Part shown: piece after piece, positions 1-61,170 of the stretch | Layout: each line of letters begins with the position of its first letter | How positions within the stretch are numbered: the stretch's first letter is position 1 | Translations under genes and position numbers: made by a program | Virus record (IMG/VR): IMGVR_UViG_3300009419_000019 | Span: 1 to 61,249 of that record | Length of the DNA stretch: 61,249 nucleotides | From: a virus | Strand: one strand, 5' to 3' | Notes under the pieces: model-generated | What the model was told of the DNA's origin: nothing | The model's database searches: none | What the model saw: only the letters and a program-made list of their open reading frames with translations

Positions 1-13
1 CCCTCATACCCCC

Positions 14-32
14 ATATATTCAGTGAATATAT
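14..32. promoter_or_regulatory. 19-bp operator-like palindrome, copy 1
   Basis: ATATATTCAGTGAATATAT has perfect 9-bp arms around a central G. The identical sequence lies at 13327-13345 and a one-mismatch copy at 56449-56467, both over good promoters. Here no clear promoter can be assigned, because the sequence to the left is missing. Confidence 0.7.
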
Positions 33-76
33 CGCCTGGGTTGAACTAACTTTTTGTGGGGCACCCCCATGAGACC

Positions 77-145
77 CAAGTAACTTCCACGCATCCTGGG
101 TCGATCTCGCAAGCCGCCGAACACGGTTGTGCGGAAGTCACTTCC
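77..145. promoter_or_regulatory. Pair of GAAGTNACTTC-family sites
   Basis: Position 77-87 reads CAAGTAACTTC (one outer mismatch). Position 134-144 reads GAAGTCACTTC, within the 13-bp palindrome GGAAGTCACTTCC at 133-145. The centres are 57 bp apart. They belong to a motif family spread over the whole window and are candidate repressor sites. Confidence 0.6.
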
Positions 146-330
146 AACCCGATGATCGTCGGTGGGTGAAAGTTAGATTTCAGGTTAGAACGTGGGGGTG
201 GCCACCTCGAAGTGACGAGATTGACTAGGAGTGTTTATAAGCTCGCGGAGGGGCCTGGGTAGGCCGCGTATCGGTCTTTGGATTTCACGAGATTAAGAAC
301 TGATCTGTGAGATCCTAACAACACTGGCAG

Positions 331-360
331 TTGAGGGGTCAACCCGATGTTGAGGGGTCA
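331..360 (+). repeat. Duplicated 11-mer TTGAGGGGTCA
   Basis: Two direct copies at 331-341 and 350-360, spaced 19 bp start to start. They may be protein-binding iterons next to the candidate origin; function is unknown. Confidence 0.5.
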
Positions 361-409
361 GTGGTCGGCCAAGTCGTCGTCGCCGGTCGAATGTCCGAAA
401 AACCGGGCC

Positions 410-522
410 TGGACAGCATAGGTCTGAATAAGTCGTTTTTTCCCTTTATGTATAGGTAGACTTTTATAAACCTTCTCGTAGCACATAGTCAAAAAAGCCC
501 TTATCCAGACCTATGCTGTCCA
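410..522. repeat. 32-bp imperfect inverted repeat, candidate origin or control element
   Basis: The left arm 410-441 and right arm 491-522 match as inverted copies at 28 of 32 positions; the outer 17 bp (TGGACAGCATAGGTCTG) are perfect. Each copy, read inwards, ends in a run of six T. The 49-bp centre is A+T-rich. The element lies about 150 bp beyond the 3' end of the primase-helicase gene. It could be a replication origin, a binding site for the primase-helicase, or a pair of convergent transcription signals. Confidence 0.7.
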
Positions 523-638
523 AATGGGGGTAAAAGCAAGGGTAAACCCTTAAAACTTTTCTTTAGACTCGGCGGCGATCCATGGCCGATGTAAAACCGA
601 TTTTTAGGCGTCATGCTGGCAATCTGCGACATAGAACG

Positions 639-660
639 AAAAAACCGCCCGAAGGCGGCT
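639..660 (-). terminator. Rho-independent terminator of the primase gene
   Basis: On the minus strand, stem CCGCC/GGCGG (645-649 with 654-658) closes a TTCG loop and is followed by six U (639-644). It lies just past the stop codon of the primase-helicase. Confidence 0.85.
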
Positions 661-674
661 TGTAAAAAGGTTTT

Positions 675-3197
675 TTAGAGACCTTCACACTCTTCTTGGC
701 GTTTTCGCAGCCAATCCCGCACCTTGATCTTGTAGTCAACTTCTCCCTGAGAGCCGACGTATTCGAACATCTGAGGGTCTCGCACATACACCCTGGCCTT
801 GTCAGAACCAGTGATTCGCATGCGTCCGAGAGCCTCATAACCGTCCCGTTCGAGCATGAAATTGAGGGTCTTTCCAGGGGGTATCGCCGCGCCACGGGCA
901 GCAACCGCTTCCATCAGTGAGCCCAACTCGATCAGTTCCCACGACACACCCGGCACATCGTTTTCACGGATGATTTCGTCGAGCACTTGGATGAACTCGG
1001 GCTTCGAACGGGCGATCATCTGGCGACGTGCTTCGGTCTCAGGCGCGTCACCCATAGGGTCAAAGGCATCGGATTGCTCATGGTCGAGCAGCCACGCACG
1101 CAACGCGGGAGCGCACTCTGAGATGGTCTCGTAGAGCTTGGCGTAGTAGTCCCGGTTCTCGGCCTTGAACGCCTTGATGTCGTCGCGCTTTTGCCACCGT
1201 GAGAACAAGATCAGGTAGCGACGGTCGGTGTCGTCCAGGGGGAGAGCGTCTTTGTAGTTGGTGAACAGGAGGTAGTTGGTCGTGTTGATGCAGTTGTAGA
1301 CAGCCTTGCCCTTGGGATGCACCTCGATCACCGTGTTGGTGATGTAGGGCTTGATCCGGTTGATCACCTCGTACTTGTTCTTGTCGTTGATCAGGCGCAC
1401 TTCCTCGACGCACGCAACGCACTGGCCAGCACACCAGTCAGTGAAGTCGTTGTGAAGGATCTGCGCGTTCAGCATGGTCACGTTGCTCACGCCCATGACC
1501 GCACGCAGCATTTCGGCAAAGAACGTCTTGCCGTCACCCTGAACGCCTTGCAACAAGATCGCGTAATTGGCGTGCTTGCCTGGGTTTTGCACCACCCAGG
1601 AGAGCCAGTCCAAAAGCATGGCCTGTTCATCGGGTCGCTCCAACAGGTGCGCGATGTGGGCCTTGACCCGCTCGACGGCACGCTTGTCACGGGGCAGCAT
1701 CTTCTCGGGACGCTCGGGAATCTCGTGCTCTGCGTAGGTGTTGGCAAACACACCATCGGGCTCGTGGAAGATCGGATCACGACCGGGCATGTACCGACGC
1801 CCACCAACCGTATGGATCTTGTAGATGTTCAGTGCCAGTGAAGAAGCATTGGACGACGGTGTTGTGCGCCCTTCCAGTGCGTCCTTCTTGGTCAGAGCAT
1901 TGCGGTCGTACATCGCGTTGAAGCCTTGTTGCGACGTGGCGATCTTGTTGTTCGTGTTGAAGAAGCGGTCATCGCTGGTGTCGTACACCCAATTGACAGC
2001 CCACTTGGGCGTCTTCTCTTGCTTCTTCGGTGCGTAGGCCAAAGCCTTCTTGATCTCAACCAGCGATGTCTTGGTGCCGGTGATCGAGTCACGACGCTCC
2101 TTGGCCACCACGGCAAGCGCAGAACGCGAGAGACCGTCGATTTCGGCCTCACGAACCATCTGCCTTGCCTTCTCCCACGACTGAATATCTTTGGCTTCGA
2201 GGAATGCGTCACGCAACTTGATGGTCAACTCAGCCGTCGTGTTCTCGACAGCTTCCTTGGCCAAGCGCAAGATGTACCGTGCGGTAATGGGTGCCCGCTT
2301 TTTGCCTTGGACGTTGAAATCTTTCCAGCGTCGATCAAGCGCATCACCGTCGTAGTTGTCAGCGGTCTCAGACCACTCATGCCACAACTCATGGCCGGAC
2401 TCATCACCATCGAACTGATGGAACAAGGCCATGCCAACCTGCACCCACGTCTCGTAGTCGTCGGGGTTGGGCACCAGCAGCAAGCGTGAACGCAACTCAT
2501 CTGTGGTGATGTCGATGGGGTCGGTGTCTTCAAGCCAGGGGTTGTCGGCAAGCGTGCCTGCACCGGCTGAGCCAGCAAGACCGCTTCGGGCTTTCTTGAC
2601 GAGCTTCCAGCCTTCCTCTTGCGCGACTTCCTCGAAGTAGGCGATGAACTCTTGCGCCTTTTCTTCTGTCAGCAAGGGCAGCTTGTCAGCCGGTGTGTCC
2701 GTTGGCCCATTGAAGTCAGGCCACAGATAGGGGCGCTTCGTCTCAGGGTGAATGTGGTACGCGACGAACTGTTGGCCATCACCGAGGATCTCGATGCGGT
2801 GCTCCTGACCCCATTCATCGGCGTACTTCGATGATGTGATCTTGCGGAAGGGCTCGTCACAGCGAAAGACGAAAAGACGCTTGGGCGGCATGCCGATGCG
2901 CATCGGTGCATCTGCGATGTTGTCGATCACCCACTGCCCCAGCTTCTTCGATACATCTTCGTCGTACACGTCGATGTCGATGGCCGGTGTGTGCTTGGTG
3001 ATCACGCCCACGCCTGAGTTCTTGTGCCCGTGTTCGAGCCAGTCTTTCAGTTGTGCCTTGGTCGAGCGCGACTTCTGCCATCCGTCAAAGCCTGGGGCCT
3101 TCTTGCCACGTTGAATCGGGACGATGTTGTACCCGTTGTCGATCAACGTCTCACCGCATGCTGCTAGGAAGTCGCCTTGTTGCTTAAATTCACTCAT
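675..3197 (-). CDS. Primase-polymerase / superfamily 3 helicase
   Basis: An 840-residue bifunctional replication protein. The N-terminal prim-pol domain shows the metal-binding AIDIDVYD motif (about residues 72-79) and a conserved His near 148 (AYHIHPET). A PriCT-like helical domain follows at about 235-295 (DDYETWVQVGMAL). The C-terminal D5/P4-type helicase has Walker A GVQGDGKT (551-558) and a Walker B-like CVACVEEV (about 593-600). This family synthesises primers and unwinds DNA at phage or plasmid origins. The start overlaps the stop of the upstream regulator (ATGA), so the two are translationally coupled. The gene ends at a strong terminator beside the candidate origin. Confidence 0.92.
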   Translation of the reverse strand: MSEFKQQGDFLAACGETLIDNGYNIVPIQRGKKAPGFDGWQKSRSTKAQLKDWLEHGHKNSGVGVITKHTPAIDIDVYDEDVSKKLGQWVIDNIADAPMRIGMPPKRLFVFRCDEPFRKITSSKYADEWGQEHRIEILGDGQQFVAYHIHPETKRPYLWPDFNGPTDTPADKLPLLTEEKAQEFIAYFEEVAQEEGWKLVKKARSGLAGSAGAGTLADNPWLEDTDPIDITTDELRSRLLLVPNPDDYETWVQVGMALFHQFDGDESGHELWHEWSETADNYDGDALDRRWKDFNVQGKKRAPITARYILRLAKEAVENTTAELTIKLRDAFLEAKDIQSWEKARQMVREAEIDGLSRSALAVVAKERRDSITGTKTSLVEIKKALAYAPKKQEKTPKWAVNWVYDTSDDRFFNTNNKIATSQQGFNAMYDRNALTKKDALEGRTTPSSNASSLALNIYKIHTVGGRRYMPGRDPIFHEPDGVFANTYAEHEIPERPEKMLPRDKRAVERVKAHIAHLLERPDEQAMLLDWLSWVVQNPGKHANYAILLQGVQGDGKTFFAEMLRAVMGVSNVTMLNAQILHNDFTDWCAGQCVACVEEVRLINDKNKYEVINRIKPYITNTVIEVHPKGKAVYNCINTTNYLLFTNYKDALPLDDTDRRYLILFSRWQKRDDIKAFKAENRDYYAKLYETISECAPALRAWLLDHEQSDAFDPMGDAPETEARRQMIARSKPEFIQVLDEIIRENDVPGVSWELIELGSLMEAVAARGAAIPPGKTLNFMLERDGYEALGRMRITGSDKARVYVRDPQMFEYVGSQGEVDYKIKVRDWLRKRQEECEGL

Positions 3198-3481
3198 GCG
3201 GCAACCTTGATCTTCAAAGGGTCAGTGAGGTATTCGGCACGCACGACAGCACGGCCAACGGCTTGCTCGATGGCAATGGCCATGGGCACTGTCAGGTAGC
3301 CGCGACGGATGGCGAAAGAAAGAGATGAATGATCCATCTCAATCTTCGCTGCAAGTGCTCGTACACTCTGCTTCCCGGTCGCCTCAATGGCCGCTCGTGA
3401 GATCAGGTAACGCAAGCGTGCCGTAGCACGGTGTTCATCTTTTTTGTGGGTGTCCACCCACGCTGGGAAACGCACAGCCAT
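3194..3481 (-). CDS. Small HTH regulator (Cro-like)
   Basis: A 95-residue protein starting MAVRFPAWVD. I chose the ATG at 3481 because AGGAG lies just upstream; a longer frame reaching 3571 lacks such a site and would cover the promoter. The segment SVRALAAKIEMDHSSLSFAIRRG (given here only as its span, about residues 44-66) resembles a helix-turn-helix, and the following VPMAIAIEQAVG fits a Cro/YdaS-type fold. It is co-transcribed with the primase-helicase and probably controls the divergent promoters at 3482-3613. Confidence 0.65.
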   Translation of the reverse strand: MAVRFPAWVDTHKKDEHRATARLRYLISRAAIEATGKQSVRALAAKIEMDHSSLSFAIRRGYLTVPMAIAIEQAVGRAVVRAEYLTDPLKIKVAA

Positions 3482-14157: not shown

Positions 14158-16210
14158 CCACCTCGGTGAAATCTTCATCGAGCTTGCGACGATTCTCAAG
14201 CCGCCCGAGCGCATGTCGCCATCGAAGGCGGCTGAGAAGTATCGCTACGTCAACTCCCCTGGTGCGTACATCGGCCCGTGGCTCAACCGAACCGTGCCCT
14301 ACATGGTCGAACCCCAGGACGTGTACGCCTCTTTGCGCTACTCGGGTGAAATCTTCGTTGGCCCTGCTCAGTGCGGCAAGACCGACTCCCTGGTCTTGAA
14401 CAGCGTTGTCTACTCGATCAAGGTCGAGCCAATGGACACCATGGTCGTGTGCCCAACGATGCTGGCTGCGCGTGACTTCTCGATGCGTCGTATCGACCGT
14501 CTGCATCGCCACAGTGTTGATGTCGGCAAGATGCTGCTGCCCGGTGCTGACAACAACAACACGTTCGACAAGCACTACCGCACGGGCATGCTGCTCTCGC
14601 TGTCATGGCCAACACCAACCGAGCTTGCCGGTAAGCCAATTGGTCGGGTGATCCTGACTGACCGGGATCGGATGCCTGACGACGTTGACGGTGACGGCGA
14701 ACCTTTCGACTTGGCATCCAAGCGCACAACCACGTTCGGCTCTTACGCAATGACCGTGGCTGAGTCGTCACCATCTCGTGAGGTGGACAACCTGAAGTGG
14801 ATTCGCTCATCTCCCCATGAGGCACCGCCGTGCAAGGGCATCTTGGCGCTCTACAACCGGGGTGACCGCCGTCGCTGGTATTGGCCATGCCCGAACTGTG
14901 ATCGTTACTTCGAAGGTAACTTCACGATGCTCACGTGGGACAAGCAGCCTGGGATGACCAACCTCGAAGCTGCCGAAAGCACGCGCATGGTTTGCCCGCA
15001 CTGCGCACACAAGATCCACCCCGATGACCGTGATGACATGCAGCAGTGGGGCATGTGGGTCAAGGATGGTCAGTCTGTCGATGAGTTCGGTCGGATCATC
15101 GGGCCGGTGCCTCGAACGATGATCGCCTCGTTCTGGCTCAACGGCGTGGCCGCTGCCTTTACCAACTGGCGCAAGCTGGTTGCTCTGTTCCTCGACGCCA
15201 ACGATGAGTACGAACGCACGGGCTCAGAAGAAGGCTTGACCAAGTTCTACAACAACGACTTGGGCGAACCCTACTATCCCAAGTCAATGCTCGACATGGG
15301 TCGTCTGCCTGAGACCCTCAAGGGTCGTGCAGAGGCTTTGCCTGAACGCGAGGTGCCCGAGGGTGTTCGCTTCCTGATCGCCAACGTGGACGTGCAGAAG
15401 AACAGCTTTGTTGTCCAAGTCCACGGTGTCATGCCGGGATCTCCGTTCGACACCGTGATCATCGACCGCTTCGAGATCCGCAAGTCAAAGCGCACCGACG
15501 CTGACGGGGACGTGGAATGGATTCGACCGCATGCCTATGCCGAAGATTGGCACGAGATCACAGAGCATGTGCTTGAGAAGGAATACCCCCTGGCCGATGG
15601 CTCCGGTCGCATGATGTCGATTAAGTTCACCACTTGCGACTCCGGTGGTAAGGAAGGCGTGACGACTCGGGCTTATGAGTATTACCGCTCGCTGCGTGAG
15701 CAGAACAAGCACCGTCGATTCATTCTGGTCAAGGGTGAAACCCTGCCGAACCAGCCTCGCACCCGGATCAGTTACCCGGACGCCAGCCGCCGAGATTCAA
15801 AGTCGGGTGCCCGTGGTGACGTGCCAGTTTTGATCCTGAACTCGAACATGCTCAAAGACGACCTCAATGGTCGCCTCGATTGCATTACCCCAGGTAAGGG
15901 CCTGTTCAGGTTTCCAAACTGGTTGTCCGACAGTTTCTTTGCCGAAATGTGCAGTGAGTACCGCACGCCGAAAGGCTGGGAAAAGGCGCACGGGGTTCGA
16001 AACGAAGGCTGGGACTTGGCGTATTACTTCCTGGGCGTGTGTGTCTCTGAACTGCTCCGGGTCGAGCACGTGGATTGGGCAAACCCGCCCTCTTGGGCAC
16101 GAGATTGGGACAAGAACGACTTGGTTCGCTCAGCAGATAAAACTAAGCCTTTTGCTCCTGCCGTAGAATCCGCGTATGATTTCAGGCAACTTGGGAAAGC
16201 CCTAGCCTAA
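14132..16210 (+). CDS. Terminase large subunit (lambda gpA family)
   Basis: A 692-residue packaging motor and nuclease. The ATPase has the Walker A-like GPAQCGKTD (77-85). Two CxxC pairs (CPNCDRYF and CPHCAHKI) resemble the zinc motif of gpA. The C-terminal nuclease half includes ANVDVQKNSF and TCDSGGKEG, fitting an RNase H-like fold with acidic metal ligands. Homology to gpA suggests cos packaging, but no cos site was identified. A near-perfect GAAGTGACTTT site (14119-14129) lies just before the start. The start may be ATG 14132 or 14138. Confidence 0.93.
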   Translation: MTMKTTRYNHLGEIFIELATILKPPERMSPSKAAEKYRYVNSPGAYIGPWLNRTVPYMVEPQDVYASLRYSGEIFVGPAQCGKTDSLVLNSVVYSIKVEPMDTMVVCPTMLAARDFSMRRIDRLHRHSVDVGKMLLPGADNNNTFDKHYRTGMLLSLSWPTPTELAGKPIGRVILTDRDRMPDDVDGDGEPFDLASKRTTTFGSYAMTVAESSPSREVDNLKWIRSSPHEAPPCKGILALYNRGDRRRWYWPCPNCDRYFEGNFTMLTWDKQPGMTNLEAAESTRMVCPHCAHKIHPDDRDDMQQWGMWVKDGQSVDEFGRIIGPVPRTMIASFWLNGVAAAFTNWRKLVALFLDANDEYERTGSEEGLTKFYNNDLGEPYYPKSMLDMGRLPETLKGRAEALPEREVPEGVRFLIANVDVQKNSFVVQVHGVMPGSPFDTVIIDRFEIRKSKRTDADGDVEWIRPHAYAEDWHEITEHVLEKEYPLADGSGRMMSIKFTTCDSGGKEGVTTRAYEYYRSLREQNKHRRFILVKGETLPNQPRTRISYPDASRRDSKSGARGDVPVLILNSNMLKDDLNGRLDCITPGKGLFRFPNWLSDSFFAEMCSEYRTPKGWEKAHGVRNEGWDLAYYFLGVCVSELLRVEHVDWANPPSWARDWDKNDLVRSADKTKPFAPAVESAYDFRQLGKALA

Positions 16211-16229
16211 TTTTTGCGAAAGAATCCAC

Positions 16230-16457
16230 ATGCCGTTGACGACCGAACAGAAACTTGAGGAAGCCGAGAAGGCTTATCACGCACTGGTCACGGGGACGAG
16301 CCCACGTGTGATCGTTGATCGCAATGGTGAGCGTGTCGAGTTCACAGCGGCAAACCGCCAAGGTCTCGCCTCGTACATCACCGAGTTGAAGCTGAGCCTC
16401 GGTTTGCTGACCCCGAGCTTCGCGCCATCGAACGGGCCAGCTACTTTCATCTTCTGA
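16230..16457 (+). CDS. Head-tail joining protein gpW
   Basis: A 75-residue protein with LEEAEKAYHALVTGTSPRVI, the hairpin RNGERVEFTAANRQGLASYI, then TELKLSLG, closely matching lambda gpW in length and pattern. gpW plugs the filled head and forms the platform for gpFII. It lies between TerL and portal, as in lambda. Confidence 0.9.
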   Translation: MPLTTEQKLEEAEKAYHALVTGTSPRVIVDRNGERVEFTAANRQGLASYITELKLSLGLLTPSFAPSNGPATFIF

Positions 16458-16459
16458 CC

Positions 16460-18088
16460 ATGACAAAACAACCTACGACCGAAGTCGCGCCTGTCACGCA
16501 AAAAGCCATCGGTGGTGGGTTGGAGGGTGCCGAACGAACGACTCGTGAGACGTTCAATTGGAGCCCCGCGATCATCTCCCCTGATCGCCAGATCAACCCG
16601 AGCAAAGAGCTTGCCGATGCTCGCGTGCTCGACACGATCCAGAACGACGGCTTCGCCATGGGTGCCGTTGGCACGCACCGCGACAGCATTGTTGGAAATC
16701 AGTTCCGACTCAACGCTCAGCCCAACATCGACGTTCTCGGCGCAGATGAAGCATGGGCAGAAGAGTTTCAGGTTCAGGTTGAGGCCCGCTTCAACCTGAT
16801 GGCTGACAGCGAAGAGTGCTGGTTCGATGCTGCCGGTGCCAACACCTTCACCAACTTGATTCGTCTTGCCGTGGTCGGCGAGGTGATCACAGGTGAAGTG
16901 CTGGCAACGGCTGAATGGCTGCGTTCTGTGACCCGCCCATTCAGCACGGCGATCCAGATGATCTCCCCGAGCCGTCTGTCCAACCCGAACGATGTGCCCG
17001 ATGACCGCTATCTGCGTCGTGGCGTGGCCAAGGATCGCTTCGGCAAGGCGTTGGGCTATCACATTCGTGCGTCGCACCCCACCGACTACTACACCGACTT
17101 CGAGACCTCGCGTTGGGTGTACGTGCCTGCTCGCAAGCCTTGGGGTCGTCGTCAGGTGATCCACATCATTCAGCAGATGCGCCCGGATCAAACCCGTGGC
17201 ATCAGCGACATGGTGACGGTGCTCAAGAACATGAAGATGACCCGCAAGTTCCGCGACGTGGTGTTGCAGAACGCAGTGGTCAACGCGAGCTACGCTGCTG
17301 CCATCGAATCCGAACTCCCCAAGGAAGTTGTTTTCGGTGCATTGGGCGCAGGGCAACCCGGCTTTGGTCAGATGCTCGGTGACTTCATGACATCGCTCAA
17401 CAGCTATGTCTCGGCGTCCGACAACATTGCCATCGACGGGGTGAAGATCCCACACCTGTTCCCTGGCACGAAGCTCTCGCTCAAGCCGATGGGTACCCCA
17501 GGTGGTATCGGTGGTGAGTTCGAAGAGTCGCTTCTTCGCCACACCGCAGCAACGCTTGGTCTGAGCTACGAGCAGTTCGCACGGGATTACTCCAAGACGA
17601 ACTACTCGTCTGCCCGTGCGTCCATGGGCGAGACCGAGAAGCACATGCAGTCGCGCAAGAAAGCCGTGGCTGACCGCTTCGCCACGATGATCTACACGCT
17701 GTGGCTCGAAGAAGAGATCAACGCCGGGAACGTCCCCATGCCCAATGGCAAAGGCGCAGAACTGTTCTACGACCCTGTGATGCGCGAGGCACTGATCAAC
17801 TGCACGTGGATCGGCGCTGGCCGTGGCCAGATCGACGAGAAGAAGGAAACTGAGTCGGCTGTGCTGCGGATTCAGAACAACCTTTCGACCCTGGAATTGG
17901 AGTGCGCTCGCTTGGGTCAGGACTACCGTCGCATTCTTCGCCAACGTCTGCGCGAAGAAGAATTGAAGAAGAAGTACAACCTCGTCGATCCCGTACCCGG
18001 TGCGATGGGGCAAAATGCGGGCAACAATTCCACGAACGGTTCGTCGGATAACCAATCCGACAATGAGAACGGAGATTCCAATGTCTGA
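16460..18088 (+). CDS. Portal protein (lambda gpB family)
   Basis: A 542-residue portal. It contains the family features DSIVGNQFRLNAQP, ISPSRLSNPNDVPDD, GYHIRASHPTDYY and SYEQFARDYSKTNYSSARAS. The ring at one capsid vertex is the DNA channel. The C-terminus is Asn/Ser/Gly-rich and disordered (NAGNNSTNGSSDNQSDNENG). It follows gpW by two bases and overlaps the protease gene by eight. Confidence 0.93.
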   Translation: MTKQPTTEVAPVTQKAIGGGLEGAERTTRETFNWSPAIISPDRQINPSKELADARVLDTIQNDGFAMGAVGTHRDSIVGNQFRLNAQPNIDVLGADEAWAEEFQVQVEARFNLMADSEECWFDAAGANTFTNLIRLAVVGEVITGEVLATAEWLRSVTRPFSTAIQMISPSRLSNPNDVPDDRYLRRGVAKDRFGKALGYHIRASHPTDYYTDFETSRWVYVPARKPWGRRQVIHIIQQMRPDQTRGISDMVTVLKNMKMTRKFRDVVLQNAVVNASYAAAIESELPKEVVFGALGAGQPGFGQMLGDFMTSLNSYVSASDNIAIDGVKIPHLFPGTKLSLKPMGTPGGIGGEFEESLLRHTAATLGLSYEQFARDYSKTNYSSARASMGETEKHMQSRKKAVADRFATMIYTLWLEEEINAGNVPMPNGKGAELFYDPVMREALINCTWIGAGRGQIDEKKETESAVLRIQNNLSTLELECARLGQDYRRILRQRLREEELKKKYNLVDPVPGAMGQNAGNNSTNGSSDNQSDNENGDSNV

Positions 18089-60960: not shown

Positions 60961-61170
60961 GAGCATGGGCGCACGGTGTCAGGGTGTGACCCATAGCAGG
61001 GTGTGACCCATAGCAGGGGCAGACCAGTAGCAGGGTGTGACCCATAGCAGGGTGTGACCTAGAGCATGGGTGCACGGTGTGACCTAGAGCATGGGTGCAC
61101 GGTGTGACCTAGAGCATGGGCGCACGGTGCCATGGCATGCCCTTGAGCATGGGCGCACGGTGTGGCCGTG
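60961..61170 (+). repeat. Right-end tandem repeat array
   Basis: A minisatellite-like array. Five 17-bp units of the form CAGGGTGTGACCCATAG lie head to tail from 60980 to 61064 (one degenerate). They are followed by 25-bp units beginning CATGGGTGCACGGTGTGACC (61065-61089, 61090-61114) and degenerate forms to about 61165. A related GAGCATGGGCGCACGGTGT also opens the array at 60961. No gene is seen in 60856-61249. It may be an origin, a packaging region or a simple repeat. Confidence 0.75.

Follow-up and report, generated by a model that had tools for sequence, protein, structure and literature searches.

An inverted repeat 3' of a viral PrimPol-helicase gene as a probable iteron-type replication origin

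The inverted repeat at positions 410-522 of the IMG/VR virus record IMGVR_UViG_3300009419_000019 (61,249 bp, all of which was analysed and is referred to here as the window) is probably a replication origin, with inverted tandem iterons that would be bound by the winged helix of the PrimPol-helicase encoded beside it. This assignment is made by sequence comparison; it is quite likely that the element is an origin of the kind found in the archaeal plasmid pRN1. An origin recognised by the adjacent primase-helicase had been the original prediction, and it is the reading that the comparisons support best. That origins can lie 3' of such genes is already known; what is new concerns the substructure of the arms and their co-evolution with the protein.

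Direct reading bears out the geometry first described, i.e. two 32-bp arms, 410-441 on the + strand and the reverse complement of 491-522, identical at 28 of 32 positions (four mismatches), with TTTTTT at the inner edge of both and a 49-bp centre (442-490) between them. The ungapped core, 410-432/500-522, matches at 22 of 23 positions around a 67-bp centre with 66% A+T, and a repeat search of positions 1-3400 returned an inverted repeat at 410-450/482-522 with 80% identity. Among inverted repeats in the window with outer ends no more than about 260 bp apart, that at 410-522 has the top score (20, the next being 16); the core 23-mer, with up to three mismatches, occurs in the window at the two arm sites only, with none expected in 100 shuffles. 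Folded as single-stranded DNA, 410-522 has a z score of -4.67. The second-best inverted repeat (score 16), at 6870-6894/6946-6970, has a similar counterpart at locus L003 and is perhaps a terminator. The element was said to have no coding explanation, and indeed no ORF of at least 60 aa in the window ORF list spans the arms.

Each arm can be divided further. The left arm (410-432, + strand) comprises degenerate tandem 10-bp units at 411-420, GGACAGCATA, and 421-430, GGTCTGAATA; the right arm (500-522, - strand) has units at 512-521, GGACAGCATA, and 502-511, GGTCTGGATA. Read as tandem GGACAGCATA-GGTCTGRATA, a split made post hoc by analogy with relatives, the units agree at 7 of 10 positions, and the pattern obtained from them, GGWCWGNATA, has five matches in the window, of which four fall within the arms. 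The candidate iteron copies in the window are the four degenerate units in the arms, with none beyond them. The centre (433-499, neither strand), a candidate unwinding element, has 66% A+T compared with about 43% for the genome, with T6 tracts at both inner edges. It includes, on the - strand at 473-490, the motif GACTATGTGCTACGAGAA, which contains GTG and resembles GACTACGTGTAGCGAGAA of relatives in a comparison of 14 loci plus phage BPP-1, aligned by eye on hand-chosen anchors. GTG is reported as the triplet at which ORF904 and NrSPol start their primers (PMC8718748). Elsewhere in the window, an inverted 12-mer pair, CTCGACTATGTG/CACATAGTCGAG at 4902-4913/4953-4964, lies inside a DUF2800 exonuclease-like gene and is also present at L003 and L009; GACTATGTG of this pair recurs in the centre of the candidate origin.

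The arms begin 153 bp 3' of the stop codon of the candidate initiator gene (675-3197, - strand), past a separate intrinsic terminator of that gene found by a terminator scan (642-661, - strand). By Pfam the gene encodes a PrimPol domain (PF09250), PriCT-2 and a DUF5906 SF3-type helicase, a protein type of Casjensviridae-like phages. Among the best 30 of 408 matching phage records, the closest primase is that of SS2019XI (52% identity), followed by those of FoX4, phiAxp-2, AXY1, Nazgul, AH2 and JS26 (42-44%), these phages being mostly Casjensviridae. P4-type primase-helicases had been named as the parallel for this gene. The alpha protein of phage P4, which has an iteron origin, is comparable in that it is described as an SF3 helicase with a C-terminal winged helix that binds origin repeats (PMC4234260). 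It differs from the window protein in having a bacterial TOPRIM primase, and the label of P4-type primase, with that of a P4 alpha-type replicon, has to be given up, the window gene having no P4-TOPRIM and instead an archaeo-eukaryotic (AEP) PrimPol with PriCT-2.

The C-terminal region of about 120 codons (678-1040, - strand), the part least conserved compared with L003, is a candidate repeat-binding domain. A winged helix is predicted at residues 726-809 (about 771-1022, - strand) from a structural model (pLDDT 92.8) and structural comparison, with VIA-align matching generic winged-helix proteins over model residues 27-110 at Z of at most 5.6. The P4 domain is not among the best 50 VIA-align rows, which excludes nothing; Foldseek with the C-terminal model against the PDB gave no match at E ≤ 0.001, and a profile of the C terminus gave none among PDB sequences. 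Residues shared by the window and L003 primases number 42-50 in each of the first four 60-residue blocks, 51-60 in the middle blocks, and 41 and 29 in the last two, so the C terminus is the least conserved, yet not the sole variable, part. As in pRN1-type replicons, the element is thus located just 3' of a gene for a PrimPol/SF3 helicase/winged-helix protein, the winged helix being a predicted one with low-Z matches.

The position and layout of the element are kept in close relatives. At L003 and L009, where the primase is 83% identical, an inverted repeat with a similar centre is found at the same place, with arms that read TTGTCCCGTTGGTCCC... compared with TGGACAGCATAGGTCTG... in the window; at L004 (62%) the arms of the inverted repeat read ACTGGACTGGATGGACTGG.... 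Between the window and these three loci the arm letters differ and complementarity is kept, as is characteristic of pRN1-type origins. The expected conservation in related phages therefore holds for position and layout but not for the letters, which change even at 83% primase identity, so that the refutation first proposed, a lack of the arms among close relatives, must be understood as a lack of the layout. No strong inverted repeat is present at L005, L006, L008, L027 and L038, where identity is about 59%; the central motif is nevertheless retained at L005, L027 and L038. By eye, the DNA 3' of the primase at L006 and L008 looks more like protein-coding sequence than like an origin, which suggests the insertion of a gene there.

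At the DNA level, an exact search of viral contigs with a motif from the centres of the window and L003 matched no contigs other than those of L003 and L009, and when phage records were searched with 300-680 at E up to 10, the best 20 of 667 matches all fell on the terminator stretch. Duplicated 11-mers had been noted near the repeat, and TTGAGGGGTCA is indeed present at 331-341 and 350-360; among 187 loci its exact matches are in L001 and L002 only, both of them window DNA, and its absence from relatives implies that it is not a conserved part of the element. GC skew, suggested as a check, does not point at 410-522, its cumulative minimum being near 42 kb. The contig ends of L003 and L009, at GGTGCGCTGAGC, resemble the annotated cos of phage Season12 (GGTGCGCAGAGC) and by eye lie about 40 bp beyond the first base of the window. 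Near the right end of the window and the presumed cos, at 60970-61160, near-repeats of the types GCAGGGTGTGACCCATA... and GTGTGACCTAGAGCATGGGTGCACG... are clustered, also as judged by eye.

A survey of primase 3' regions at 129 loci (the window and 128 others) places the element in a wider setting. Inverted repeats with a score of at least 14 and a 35-130-bp centre are present in 27 of 129 downstream regions; none was seen in the 129 coding controls, and a single one in 645 shuffles. A 9-mer in at least four exact copies occurs just 3' of the gene in 43 of 129 regions versus 12 of 979 coding windows, and with one mismatch allowed 71 of 129 regions lie above the 99th percentile of shuffles. The repeated words are lineage-specific, e.g. 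AGGTCCGAAT in AH2 and Nazgul, AACTTAGGGC in Smarc1, AGGTAACAG in Season12 and CATRCCGAAT at L041 and L149. When eight whole records of 56-61 kb were searched for exact copies, these all lay, in each of the eight, no more than about 750 bp from the primase 3' end (AH2, 9/9; Nazgul, 4/4; Smarc1, 5/5; and the records of L040, 10/10; L125, 8/8; L111, 5/5; L041, 12/12; and L149, 8/8), the AH2 and Nazgul counts running across the record ends, beyond which one or two copies lie; in two control records, CATRCCGAAT gave one stray copy each. In many relatives the same word is also found as direct repeats and in extra copies on both strands. Considering full-length primase relatives, 59 of 86 have iterons or an inverted repeat within 600-800 bp and 27 of 86 have neither within that distance, though among the latter clear iterons lie at a greater distance downstream at L017, L048, L053 and L054. 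L053 has, 1236 bp past the primase stop, a very long inverted repeat (score 36), the arms of which contain three tandem CTTGTGACA; AGTGTCACA occurs there 12 times in about 300 bp.

Across relatives, the arms have a tandem substructure of 8-10 bp and so are more than simple stems. Over 25 non-redundant arms with a score of at least 14, tested at lags of 5-15, self-matching at lag 9 is 137/293 (0.47), compared with 0.28 in shuffled arms (z 7.9); lags 8 and 10 are also raised (z 4.8 and 3.4, respectively), and the remaining lags are not. The tandem units are exemplified by AGGTGCCGGA-AGTGCCGGA at L112 and GGACTGGAT-GGACTGGAT at L004. Copies beyond the arms total 127 over the 25 loci versus 33 expected, with only 9 of the 25 loci exceeding all 20 of their shuffles; outside copies are absent from the window, L004, L028, L032, L121 and L128, and at L003 are no more frequent than by chance.

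The repeat word also varies together with the protein. In a partial Mantel analysis of 56 loci, relating word similarity to the identity of each part of the protein with correction for the rest of it, the C terminus tracks the word (partial r 0.18, P 5e-4) and the N-terminal PrimPol domain does not (partial r 0.02, P 0.35); the helicase (r 0.15) and middle part (r 0.13) track it too, so that the co-variation is not confined to the C terminus. In two chi-like comparisons, L099/L100 and L099/L101, identity drops sharply at the C-terminal domain. For L099/L100, DNA identity is 88-98% over the primase body, falls to 57-73% in the final 390 bp and stays at 51-76% from there to the end of the 3' region; high identity is never regained on the 3' side, and the sequences 5' of the gene have diverged as well. 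For L099/L101, it is 89-99% upstream, 71-95% over the body, 61-74% in the final 390 bp and 43-64% in the 600 bp that follow the gene, returning to 92-94% from +714, an arrangement which, going by these identities, looks like a flanked cassette. The corresponding words are related yet altered, i.e. AGGTAACAG in Season12 (the primase of which equals that of L099), (A)GGTTACAAG at L100 and AGGTTACAAA at L101. Since the C terminus and the repeats are adjacent, their joint change could be explained by linkage without function.

Comparison with better known replicons extends the layout beyond these relatives. In pRN1, as in the window, an inverted repeat lies just 3' of a PrimPol-SF3 gene; the 23-bp arms and 67-bp centre of the window are of the pRN1 type (about 20-bp inverted repeat, about 60-nt AT-rich centre), the pRN1 values being 21 bp and 58 nt. 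Stem sequence is likewise reported not to be conserved within the pRN1 family. By contrast with the window, pRN1 is an archaeal Sulfolobus plasmid, its arms are perfect and it was published as a stem-loop without iterons. The pRN1 arms, TTATGTCCATAGTGTCCAACT, can nevertheless be read as tandem 9-bp units, TGTCCATAG-TGTCCAACT; those of the plasmid pHEN7 read GTCACCACT-GTCACAACT, the unit is weak in pRN2, and the pSSVx arms have no tandem unit. In the Bordetella phage BPP-1, both arms consist of exact 9-bp tandem units, TTGCCTCGT-TTGCCTCGT, around a 60-bp centre. BPP-1 resembles the window in having a PrimPol gene with PriCT-2 and an inverted repeat on its 3' side, and differs in that the repeat is 467 bp past the primase stop, beyond a hypothetical gene, with a predicted role. 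The near-identical BIP-1 has been assigned a 3' stem-loop origin (PMC4234260), which may be the same stretch as the BPP-1 inverted repeat. Stenotrophomonas phage S1 has similar arms too, within a gene that follows the primase and is annotated as hypothetical. An iteron reading of the pRN1 or BPP-1 arms was not found in print in a search of the open-access literature, including parts of PMC4234260 and PMC3869888.

The Nitratiruptor phage NrS-1 bears on a first alternative. Directly after its primase gene (14895-17051), at 17062-17377, are 11 of 11 exact copies of AAGTGTAAC, the reversed pattern of which occurs once in the genome; like the window, NrS-1 thus has repeats immediately 3' of a PrimPol-helicase gene, and, unlike the window, many spaced copies. 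An annotated hypothetical CDS, NRS1_29 (17055-17456; 3556-3957 of L182), coincides with the cluster and may be spurious. NrS-1 PrimPol is reported to recognise the 8-nt sequence TTTGGTTA on single-stranded templates (PMC8718748, PMC7102993), and an exact copy lies within the repeat cluster, at 17198-17205, this being the one copy found compared with two in the genome according to the paper. The location of this site in such a cluster counts in favour of an origin recognised by the adjacent primase-helicase. It may alternatively be that iterons are single-stranded priming templates read by the PrimPol/helix-bundle domain, as opposed to duplex sites for the winged helix. The lack of any tie between N-terminal PrimPol identity and repeat similarity, and the drop in identity at the C-terminal domain in both chi-like comparisons, argue against this proposal, which is regarded as rather doubtful.

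A second alternative is the model published for pRN1 and BIP-1 (PMC4234260), i.e. that the arms pair and the initiator recognises an extruded hairpin or cruciform, not the arm sequence. The retention of pairing as letters change, the strong single-strand fold and the lack of extra copies in the window are all consistent with it, as is the experimental work on pRN1. There, replication depends on a 100-nt stem-loop on the 3' side of orf904 and is restored when this element is placed elsewhere (PMC4234260, PMC3869888), and a one-arm change that blocks replication is made good by the symmetric change in the other arm, further alterations of the stem being tolerated; Berkner et al. describe the origin as without iteron structure, report no specific binding in gel shifts or footprints, and present the stem-loop as an origin without direct proof (PMC4234260). 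Symmetric rescue together with negative binding favours pairing or helper factors over plain iterons. Against a hairpin are the occurrence of relatives' words as direct repeats and in extra copies on both strands, the 8-10-bp internal repetition of the arms, which is not needed for pairing, and the cases of AH2, where many copies accompany best arms of only 13 bp, and Smarc1, where many copies occur with no inverted repeat of score at least 11. A single-copy hairpin as the whole story is thus weakened, and the model is considered unlikely.

It is somewhat less likely still that the repeats are sites for another protein, be it the product of the small Cro-like ORF located upstream, a protein of the host or, with a cos close by, the small subunit of the terminase. 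The small ORF does track repeat similarity, more weakly and independently (partial r 0.10, P 0.002); the region ends at the annotated cos in Nazgul, Smarc1 and Season12, and in NrS-1, S1 and BPP-1 (L182, L183 and L184) the cluster or inverted repeat is located between the primase and terminase genes. Given the latter arrangement, a role in packaging is less easily dismissed, and it raises the possibility that origin and packaging start are neighbours. However, exact copies occur nowhere else in the AH2 record, so that the promoter beside the small ORF is also without them, and correcting for the small ORF leaves the winged-helix correlation in place (0.171). Arms of the same layout also occur in the plasmids pRN1 and pHEN7, and pRN1 needs its arms to replicate (PMC4234260).

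A structured RNA or transcription terminator is very improbable: the covarying arms look like a stem, but the canonical terminator is separate, at 642-661, the arms enclose a 67-bp loop in place of the short loop of a GC-rich intrinsic terminator stem, a T run is missing after the outer stem end, no sigma-70-like promoter was found in 1-900, and no Rfam family matched in the window at the gathering score, which excludes described families only. No tRNA was found in the window. Protelomerase sites are near-continuous palindromes, and the 67 bp between the arms do not fit such a site.

In the preferred reading, that of an origin with inverted iterons, each arm would consist of two head-to-tail initiator-binding sites of about 9-10 bp, the arms facing each other over the AT-rich centre, and the C-terminal winged helix of the PrimPol-helicase would bind the iterons of both arms. 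Their inversion may serve to load two SF3 helicase rings in opposite orientation, bidirectional loading being suggested by the symmetry; the centre would then melt and the PrimPol domain would make the first primers there, possibly at the GTG. The iteron sequence would be private to a lineage and change with the winged helix, sometimes as a contiguous cassette.

More generally, the chances appear about even that what has been published as a 'stem-loop origin' in pRN1-type PrimPol replicons, in archaeal plasmids as well as in phages, consists of tandem 9-bp iterons in inverted pairs, and that initiator and iterons, i.e. the winged helix and the repeats downstream of it, form an exchangeable cassette; close relatives with a near-identical enzyme would then differ in their origins and not recognise each other's. 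PrimPol-SF3 helicases are widespread among phages and plasmids, and the proposal that tandem 9-bp units change with the winged helix gives a concrete and cheap hypothesis for finding their origins, specifying which domain and which bases are involved. If it is correct, sequence alone would suffice to locate the origins of such phages, and exchange of cassettes would offer related replicons a natural way of becoming compatible.
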